A program made the position numbers and the translations under genes. Positions 41,750 to 43,560 of a stretch of 64,000 nt of DNA are shown here, piece after piece (the first letter of the stretch is position 1; every line of letters begins with the position of its first letter). The stretch comes from a virus: positions 124,001-188,000 of the IMG/VR virus record IMGVR_UViG_3300042923_000474; one strand, 5' to 3'. The notes under the pieces were generated by a model. The model was not told where the DNA came from. It was given only the letters and a program-made list of their open reading frames with translations, and did no database searches.

Positions 41750-41750
41750 A

Positions 41751-41796
41751 CCCTCTCCCATTACGGGAGAGGGGATCTATGCTGTCTTTTTTTTTT
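41751..41796 (+). terminator. Strong terminator with TATG and T tract
   Basis: Nine-pair stem CCCTCTCCC (41751-41759) / GGGAGAGGG (41765-41773), then CTATGC and ten T residues (41787-41796). The upstream TCATAA is the end of the preceding gene. Confidence 0.9.
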
Positions 41797-41881
41797 GTGT
41801 CGTGGTGGCTCATTGATGCCAGTTTTGCTTGGGTTAATCTATGTAGTACCTTGTTAATCCCCTTATGTACGGAGTTTACCC
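41797..41881 (+). promoter_or_regulatory. Probable promoter region of the macrodomain pair
   Basis: A short A+T-richer spacer following a strong terminator with two TATG elements (41840-41843 and 41864-41867) and CGGAG before the next ATG. A promoter is required here if the upstream terminator is efficient; the TATG assignment is tentative. Confidence 0.35.
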
Positions 41882-42271
41882 ATGCCTCTAGCATTGGTTG
41901 AACGCATCGAGTCAACGAATCAATCCAGGTTTGTTCTGGACGGCAGAGGTCCCTCTGCTGCTCAGTATTGGGGCGACTATCGTGGTCTTGAGGCCATGCT
42001 CTCTGAACGGCATAGCACGGCGCTGTACATGGCGCACGCTGCTAAGGAAAGGGGTGAACTAGACAGGAAGTTCTCGACCGACATTCCCCAACGTGTCCTG
42101 AACGACTACATTGTCCAAGCACCCTCGATTCTGCGCAAGCTGGACAGAGATATCAAAAACATCATTGATGCAGGAGGAGCCGACGCCATAGTGTACTTGA
42201 AAACACTATCCACGGTGAGAGGCGCGTTGACGGAAACGATCACGCACTTTGGCCGTATCGTAGGAACCTGA
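41882..42271 (+). CDS. Hypothetical protein (129 aa) upstream of macrodomain
   Basis: Helical, basic protein (MPLALVERIESTNQSRF...; YIVQAPSILRKLDRDIKNI). It ends two bases before the macrodomain start, forming a two-gene unit bounded by a terminator, so it may be a functional partner. No resemblance to DarT is seen. Confidence 0.5.
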   Translation: MPLALVERIESTNQSRFVLDGRGPSAAQYWGDYRGLEAMLSERHSTALYMAHAAKERGELDRKFSTDIPQRVLNDYIVQAPSILRKLDRDIKNIIDAGGADAIVYLKTLSTVRGALTETITHFGRIVGT

Positions 42272-42273
42272 CC

Positions 42274-42720
42274 ATGACTGTACTTGTCACTTATCAAAGC
42301 GTGTTCGACGCCCAAGCACAAGCGTTGGTCGTCACGGTGAACTGTGTCGGTGTGATGGGTAAAGGGGTTGCAGAGATTTGCAAACGCCGTTATCCGTTGG
42401 TGTTCATCGACTATGTACGCCGGTGTAGAAGTGGCAAGGTTAAACCTGGTCGCATCAGCAACGAGGATTGTTACCAATTACCTGATGGGCGATACATCAT
42501 CCTGTTCCCCACCAAGAATCATTGGCGACGTAATACTGAAGCCTGTTGGGTTGAGACTGGCCTAGCGGATCTTCTGCTCCACTGCCACCGTCTGAGCCTA
42601 GACGACGTGGCACTTCCTCCCCCTGGCTGCGGTAATGGCGGCTTGGAACTGACCGAGGTACAGCCGATGATCGACCTCATGTTTGAGGACGAAGACATTG
42701 AAGTTACCTTATGTATATAG
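42274..42720 (+). CDS. Macrodomain ADP-ribosyl hydrolase, DarG/TARG1 type (148 aa)
   Basis: The ADP-ribose loop TVNCVGVMGKGVA (21-33), the ILFPTKNHWR segment with Lys81, and PPPGCGNGGLE (116-125) follow the DarG/TARG1 macrodomain pattern closely; Lys81 is where these enzymes have the catalytic lysine that removes ADP-ribose from nucleotides or acidic side chains. Length equals a stand-alone macrodomain; the C-terminal DNA-mimic/antitoxin half of full DarG is absent. The likely role is removal of host-added ADP-ribose from phage DNA or proteins (anti-DarT-type counter-defence), or Appr-1''-p processing. The domain is certain by motif; the role is inferred. Confidence 0.85.
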   Translation: MTVLVTYQSVFDAQAQALVVTVNCVGVMGKGVAEICKRRYPLVFIDYVRRCRSGKVKPGRISNEDCYQLPDGRYIILFPTKNHWRRNTEACWVETGLADLLLHCHRLSLDDVALPPPGCGNGGLELTEVQPMIDLMFEDEDIEVTLCI

Positions 42721-42959
42721 ACGCGTTGCTGCGGCTAGATCCTTACCCTGAGGAGTTGACCAGCGATCTGGGAATACCAGACATGGTTGGCGAGACGGGT
42801 GCGGCGGTGGGCTTTGTGTCCTTTCACCACCGCAAGTTGTACAAGGCTAGTTATCCCCCGATGGCTAGGTTGTGCAGCCTACAGAGCATGGGGGCGTCCC
42901 GCCCTTGCCCGCCCCACCCCCGTGCTCTGTGGGGTGCTTTCCTCATCGCACCAGTGTTT
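42721..42959 (+). ncRNA. Highly structured gap, possible noncoding RNA or leader
   Basis: No convincing gene fills 42721-43041. A long hairpin is present: 42881-42894 pairs with 42917-42930 over 14 positions (one G-T pair) around a C-rich 22-base loop. A second small hairpin GGTGC (42932-42936) / GCACC (42947-42951) follows. An open frame from 42711 crosses all of this and the terminator and is probably chance. No tRNA shape is seen. Confidence 0.35.
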
Positions 42960-42988
42960 AGGCCGGCCTTCGGGTCGGCCTTTATGCC
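42960..42988 (+). terminator. Terminator hairpin followed by TTATGCC
   Basis: Nine-pair stem AGGCCGGCC (42960-42968) / GGTCGGCCT (42973-42981) with TTCG loop and one wobble pair, then TTATGCC (42982-42988). Confidence 0.8.
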
Positions 42989-43041
42989 CACACCCATTCT
43001 ATGCGACACCCCAGTCGTAGTTAACCCCAAAGGAGACACCC

Positions 43042-43560
43042 ATGAAAATTGATGTGGCCAAAACGGCACAGGAAAACCTGATCGCGCTGATCGTTGCCGC
43101 TAACCCCGGCAAAGAGTTGGCAGCCAATCAGTTCACCGCAGCCGCTCCTGTCGTCATCCCAGACGACGCTGGCCGCAACACCACCATCACTCTGTCCGCT
43201 GTTGTTGGTCAGGGCTACGGTGCTGGTGATGCGACCTTCAAATACACCCGTCTGTCCCTGGCTGGTGTGAACGTTACCCCTGTCACCAGCGTTCGCGTTG
43301 TTGACGGTGATGACGAGGCTGCTACCCTGACCAAAGTGCTCGCTGCTACCGGCATTCTGGCCAGCGAAGTTGATGCGTCGGATTACAACGCACCGACCGA
43401 TGATTCGGTTCCGGGCATGATCACTCTGACCCCGAAAGCAGGTTCCACCCTGTACGTCGGCGAAGAAGTGGTTATCGAACTGACCTGGGCCGCTGAAGCA
43501 GAGCCTACTCTGGGCGAAACCTTCACCGTGACCGATCTGGACGGCTTCGAACCCGCCTAA
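43042..43560 (+). CDS. Paralogous beta-rich virion-type protein, A module only (172 aa)
   Basis: Belongs to the window's large paralogous family. Submodule A1 has NTTITLSAVVGQGYGAG...YTRLSL, A2 has LAATGILASEVDAS, and A3 ends ETFTVTDLDGFEPA. It is the only plus-strand member and lies tail-to-tail with a minus-strand paralogue that ends NLNGFEPA. AAAGGAGAC precedes the ATG; strong codon bias. A surface or decoration role is guessed from repeats and expression. Confidence 0.6.
   Translation: MKIDVAKTAQENLIALIVAANPGKELAANQFTAAAPVVIPDDAGRNTTITLSAVVGQGYGAGDATFKYTRLSLAGVNVTPVTSVRVVDGDDEAATLTKVLAATGILASEVDASDYNAPTDDSVPGMITLTPKAGSTLYVGEEVVIELTWAAEAEPTLGETFTVTDLDGFEPA

Follow-up and report, generated by a model that had tools for sequence, protein, structure and literature searches.

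A free-standing DarG-type macrodomain beside a conserved partner gene and a predicted structured RNA in a probably nucleus-forming phage

Organization of the locus and the phage genome

The analysed stretch of DNA (the window) comprises 64,000 nucleotides and corresponds to positions 124001-188000 of a 231,724-base virus record (IMGVR_UViG_3300042923_000474). On its + strand, an intact ORF at 42274..42720 starts with ATG and encodes a macrodomain protein of 148 aa with the catalytic lysine K81, an assignment based on profiles, an AlphaFold model, a fold match and a tree. A partner ORF of 129 aa (41882..42271, +) ends 2 nt before the start codon of the macrodomain gene, and a conserved structured RNA of 229 nt (42714..42942, +), predicted from a four-phage alignment, its folding z-score and compensatory pairs, lies directly 3' of the macrodomain gene and overlaps its last codons. 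These three elements stay together in four related phages, i.e. the window phage and the contigs L002, L003 and L018, even where the downstream genes differ.

The phage encodes subunits of a multisubunit RNA polymerase as well as phiKZ-type virion proteins, and the macrodomain gene is located just upstream of virion structural genes. Outside the window, a search with PHIKZ054 detected a homologue of the nuclear shell protein chimallin (G000:C1:1297-2760, locus L123) at 7.2e-29 and 26% identity. Shell homologues are likewise encoded by the three related contigs, which makes a nucleus-forming phage probable. The record, which is perhaps incomplete, contains only one macrodomain. No match to DarT (PF14487) was obtained in its 231.7 kb or in two relatives, and none to NADAR or KptA in the record; the control genomes were positive in each case. 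The partner ORF offered nothing DarT-like either. At the DNA level, a direct search gave no match to annotated phages.

The gene product belongs to the DarG lineage

The motifs NCVGVMGKG, FPTKNHWR (K81) and PPGCGNGGLE, from which the initial annotation had argued, are all found in the 148-aa product. This protein matched Pfam Macro (5.9e-14), PHROG 335 'phosphatase' (2.5e-31) and the DarG profiles of PADLOC (1.3e-44, profile positions 7-142 of 329) and NCBIfam (1.1e-45, positions 8-145 of 338); going by these scores, the family match lies far beyond chance. The DarG-specific profiles cover the N-terminal DarG domain only. As the ORF stops at ~145 of the 338 profile positions, the gene does encode the proposed stand-alone macrodomain without the rest of DarG, and the DarT-binding C-terminal domain is missing. 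Because half of DarG is absent, the NCBIfam score of 156 bits stays under the 250-bit cut-off, which applies to full-length DarG. The top PDB sequence matches were the DarG macrodomains of M. tuberculosis (5m3i, 9e-32) and T. aquaticus (5m31, 3.4e-29), followed by the fused DarTG 7omu and then TARG1 (1.6e-6). Comparison with the gene of L002 gave a pN of 0.091 and a pS of 0.66; the macrodomain gene is under strongly purifying selection.

Predicted fold and active site

The AlphaFold model of the macrodomain, computed from 39 aligned rows of window and locus proteins, had a pLDDT of 96.2. Its nearest solved fold was Taq DarG (5m3e; TM 0.89, rmsd 1.5, 43% identity over the structural alignment). 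DarG macrodomains ranked first (TM 0.88-0.89), before Thermosipho DarTG and TARG1 (0.80-0.83), so the comparison that had been suggested between these two families placed DarG nearer. ADP-ribose readers without the catalytic lysine were not the nearest structures; in the phage protein this lysine is kept (K81 in FPTK, equivalent to Taq DarG K80). The earlier designation as DarG/TARG1-type therefore holds for a macrodomain of the DarG lineage, while profiles and structures both make the protein more DarG than TARG1. TARG1 (C6orf130) shares the fold and the position of the catalytic lysine, but is only 23-24% identical to the phage protein and uses a Lys/Asp pair (K84, D125), whereas the phage loop carries a DarG-like Asn for the Asp.

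Residue equivalences were derived from a sequence alignment to Taq DarG and the numbering of PMC5179494. The ADP-ribose hydrogen-bonding residues T20, N22, V31 and T79 of the Taq protein are kept as T21, N23, V32 and T80, and G117, G119, N120 and G121 as G118, G120, N121 and G122. Likewise, K29 and K80 correspond to K30 and K81, and the glycine-rich loop GxGNGG is kept as GCGNGG; catalytic lysine and loop are preserved in all four related phages. Two Taq contacts to ADP-ribose differ, with S9 in place of N8 and I35 in place of Q34; the loss of Q34 accompanies a change from LQF to EIC in the helix after the first loop. On this alignment, most ADP-ribose contacts of Taq DarG are retained. In the Taq enzyme K80 is essential, and the exchanges N22A, K29E and G119E, at the positions equivalent to phage N23, K30 and G120, lower activity (PMC5179494). 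On its own, the DarG macrodomain suffices as antitoxin, unlike its K80A mutant, and relieves E. coli of DarT toxicity (PMC5179494). Thus, a stand-alone copy makes mechanistic sense, and loss of the C-terminus alone does not abolish antitoxin function.

Altogether, the enzyme class, a DarG-type macrodomain, is secure, and DarT-modified DNA would be its target.

Partner ORF and flanking signals

The partner product is predicted to be mostly helical. Together with the macrodomain gene it is present in L002, L003 and L018, where the partner copies are 86, 74 and 46% and the macrodomains 84, 72 and 54% identical to those of the window, respectively. By whole-length identity these are the best-conserved genes of the region in L018, in which the genes directly downstream have no counterpart among the next genes of the window. 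Such conservation indicates that the partner ORF is a real gene. Database searches gave no family, PDB or annotated-phage match for it, and in IMG/VR only members of the same clade were recovered; it had been called unknown before, and no recognised relative appeared outside the clade in the databases searched. A sensitive search upstream of the macrodomains in 16 other phages found no partner homologues, and ORFs of similar length (130-139 aa) do occur at this place in those phages. The AlphaFold model of the partner was of low confidence (pLDDT 50.6) and too poor for a structure search. Profile-profile comparison did not support the partner as a degenerate DarT (probability 3.2%) or as a split-off DarG C-terminus (0.3%).

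A possible upstream terminator hairpin at 41751..41773 (+) is followed by a T-run after about 14 nt and recurs with different sequence at the same place in L002 and L003. Downstream, 3' of the RNA, a GC-rich hairpin with a short T tail but no good U-tract (42960..42981, +) may act likewise; a similar one with altered sequence occupies the same place in L002. A strict terminator scan scored neither, and in general the counts of strict terminators and of sigma-70 promoters equalled the shuffled expectation. The earlier description of the pair as isolated between terminators is thus borne out only in part: both hairpins are present, but the upstream T-run is set off from its stem, the downstream hairpin has a poor U-tract and the strict scan scored neither.

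The intergenic region 41750-41881 is well conserved in L002 and L003 and comprises the hairpin, the T-run and CCCCTTATGTACGGAGTTT before the start codon. A TATG motif at 41864..41867 (+), some 15 nt ahead of the partner's ATG-side end, is conserved in the same two contigs. TATG is the late promoter motif of phiKZ (PMC4666361), and the copy here might be a phiKZ-type late promoter, which we regard as a weak lead. As a general late promoter signal the motif was not supported, as it occurred in 7 of 64 upstream regions in the window against 9.4 expected.

A conserved structured RNA downstream of the macrodomain gene

The DNA from 42714 to about 42942 is conserved in the alignment of all four related phages, with counterparts of about 220-230 nt at L002:6441-6665, L003:6441-6661 and L018:5455-5690. 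The ORF across this region (42711-43052) lacks conservation over the full length of its product. The predicted RNA folds at -100.9 kcal/mol (z -2.79). RNAalifold placed 36 pairs in the first 134 columns, seven of which are changed on both sides with pairing kept, including one that reads U-A, A-U, C-G and G-C across the four phages; hairpins further downstream are also maintained with different sequences. The evidence for a structure is good, though four sequences give it little depth.

A covariance model located the RNA once per genome in the four phages, always at the same position, and gave no hit in ten other phages. Because the four sequences had gone into the model, its information lies only in the single copy number and in the lack of further hits. 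Rfam holds no family for this RNA, the best matches being at chance level, and beyond the clade no match was found in annotated phages, IMG/VR returning the same clade only. The RNA may be a gene of its own, may belong to the macrodomain operon as its 3' untranslated region, or may form the leader of the next gene. Its association with the macrodomain gene in L018, where the next gene differs, favours one of the first two.

Relatives in bacteria and other phages

A scan of GTDB genomes, which collected the best matches by similarity to the query and not all relatives, yielded 80 loci 39-48% identical to the macrodomain. Most bacterial homologues with a closed ORF (73 of 79) had the length of DarG (about 343-433 aa); ORFs below 300 aa occurred in seven of the 80 loci, one being phage L018. 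DarT adjoined the macrodomain gene in 56 of 79 cases by strict phmmer and in up to about 68 by looser clustering, in most of these loci directly upstream of the DarG gene, and a representative neighbour matched DarT at 5.7e-63 (Pfam) and 1e-77 (NCBIfam). The nearest cellular relatives of the phage macrodomain are, by this sampling, DarG proteins. Six bacterial DarG-type macrodomain ORFs are shorter than 250 aa (153-243 aa; L043, L046, L053, L024, L022 and L070), possibly stand-alone or truncated chromosomal copies.

Among 50,697 annotated phage records, tblastn found macrodomain relatives in 423, of which 407 covered at least 80% of the query; 16 representative loci were examined in detail. 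In a count that left out the window clade and phage phiMa, whose copy is a full DarG, 12 of 15 phage copies had an FPTK-type lysine motif or near variant with an aromatic residue after it. The remaining three, from VSe11, Peregrin and A3Wally, have no FPTK-type motif and fall outside the DarG-like group of the tree (support 100/99). The window protein groups with L002, L003 and L018 (98/87), and this clade adjoins the copies of phiKZ, Psa21, Caitlin and SPN3US (84/90), where several long branches make the deeper joins uncertain. The tree accordingly places the window protein among DarG macrodomains and jumbo-phage copies. With PHIKZ104 and the other stand-alone macrodomains of jumbo phages it shares the single domain, the DarG-profile matches and the occurrence in chimallin-type phages. 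It is only about 29% identical to PHIKZ104, and neither the partner ORF nor the RNA turned up in these other phages. All nine jumbo phages tested had a macrodomain, eight of them having been chosen for it and LucasX not, which hints at a general role.

Several of the loci merit mention in their own right. Thermus phage phiMa encodes a complete DarT-DarG pair (L099:1794-3550), annotated only as a hypothetical protein and as 'ADP-ribose 1-phosphate phosphatase related'. The macrodomains of Streptomyces phage Kela (L103:2501-2956) and Microbacterium phage A3Wally (L112:2501-2962) carry the annotation 'ADP-ribosyltransferase', which names the reverse activity. The macrodomain gene of Erwinia phage Special G is followed by gp155 (L108:2977-3858), whose C-terminal half matches SLOG (YAcAr) weakly and whose N-terminal half looks NADAR-like by eye; the profile search for the suspected NADAR gave no Pfam NADAR match in that phage, leaving the weak SLOG match.

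Discussion

A phage-borne DarG-type macrodomain is not new as a kind, and as such the gene is a solid but ordinary find. A survey reported macrodomains in 56% of jumbo phages and predicted mostly small ADP-ribose molecules as their targets, explicitly allowing that some may reverse the ADP-ribosylation of DNA by toxin-antitoxin systems (PMC9503650); in its general form, the counter-DarT hypothesis has therefore been published before. New here are the conserved partner gene and the structured RNA beside the macrodomain, which deserve a second look.

The explanation we consider best, at about even chances of being right as a whole, is a stand-alone ADP-ribosyl hydrolase from the lineage of DarG macrodomains. 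The ADP-ribose moiety would be bound in the macrodomain cleft and K81 used to cleave the bond to its acceptor, for which an ADP-ribosylated nucleic-acid base is the likeliest candidate. The enzyme would most probably serve to erase DarT-type marks that host defence has put on the phage DNA, and since the part of DarG that binds and blocks DarT is missing, the protein would act by repair alone. As an anti-phage defence, DarTG targets the replication of phage DNA (PMC11481870). Counter-defence is plausible given that the macrodomain alone reverses the modification (PMC5179494) and that phages carry other anti-DarT proteins (PMC11481870). SCO6735, likewise a stand-alone macrodomain but a bacterial one, reverses DarT marks and is active on thymidine-linked ADP-ribose; it belongs to a different subgroup and has Gln85 instead of the lysine (PMC9411070). 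AdfB of phage ICP1 and AdfA of T4/RB69 resemble the protein in candidate role only, as these anti-DarT factors, for which no enzymatic activity is recognised, are believed to work by binding DarT (PMC11481870), the opposite half of DarG function.

Several observations count against the counter-DarT role, namely the probable nucleus, the wide occurrence of the gene, the replacements S9 and I35 at ADP-ribose contacts, and results on the phiKZ homologue. Once the shell forms, DarT should be kept from the replicating DNA, which complicates the DarT model. Knock-down of PHIKZ104 in phiKZ lowers the shell protein ChmA during infection of P. aeruginosa, a host that was not chosen for DarT, and its authors also propose a benefit in hosts with other defence systems (PMC12571901). 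Given how common the gene is in phages, the surveys, the phenotype of the phiKZ homologue and the probable nucleus, erasure of DarT-type marks is a good candidate role, and a less surprising one than the initial annotation had rated it.

Targets outside the nucleus would be small ADP-ribose derivatives such as cyclic variants or ADP-ribose-1''-phosphate, which the macrodomain might hydrolyse as immune signals, toxins or RNA-repair products. The authors of PMC9503650 argue so for phage macrodomains generally, and the gene after the Special G macrodomain, with its weak SLOG match, fits such a setting. We rate this somewhat unlikely for the window protein, which belongs to the DarG lineage and not to other macrodomain groups, keeps the DarG/TARG1 lysine, and comes from a phage record in which no KptA-type RNA repair enzyme was found.

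The position just upstream of virion structural genes suggests a use in phage development, with ADP-ribose removed from proteins or RNA, or packaging of the protein into the virion, neither being specific counter-defence. PHIKZ104 is likewise situated amid head genes, macrodomain genes in the company of virion genes are mentioned in the survey (PMC9503650), the ChmA phenotype is in line with such a function (PMC12571901), and the related TARG1 acts on proteins (PMC5179494). The nearest relative is DarG and not TARG1, though, no ADP-ribosyltransferase was identified in the phage in searches for DarT and KptA, and the TATG late motif, despite its presence, is not enriched before window genes; a role of this kind seems unlikely to us.

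In the clade, partner, macrodomain and RNA might also form one cassette acting jointly against ADP-ribosylating defence, e.g. assembled into a ribonucleoprotein for targeting or sensing ADP-ribosylated nucleic acid, a quite unlikely arrangement in our estimate. The altered residues at Taq N8 and Q34 might suggest a protein that has lost its activity or that only binds ADP-ribose, as a reader or sponge; this is highly improbable, as all four relatives keep the lysine and the glycine-rich loop and selection is strongly purifying.

Should the macrodomain indeed erase DarT marks, it would add an enzyme, from a nucleus-forming phage, to the anti-DarTG factors AdfA and AdfB, and would raise the question why shell-enclosed phage DNA needs de-ADP-ribosylation. 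Either the shell would not be the whole protection, with exposure before its formation or through import, or the enzyme has another target. Hundreds of phages carry related genes labelled 'phosphatase', 'Appr-1-p processing' or even 'ADP-ribosyltransferase', and knowing the substrate of one such macrodomain would inform many phage annotations.
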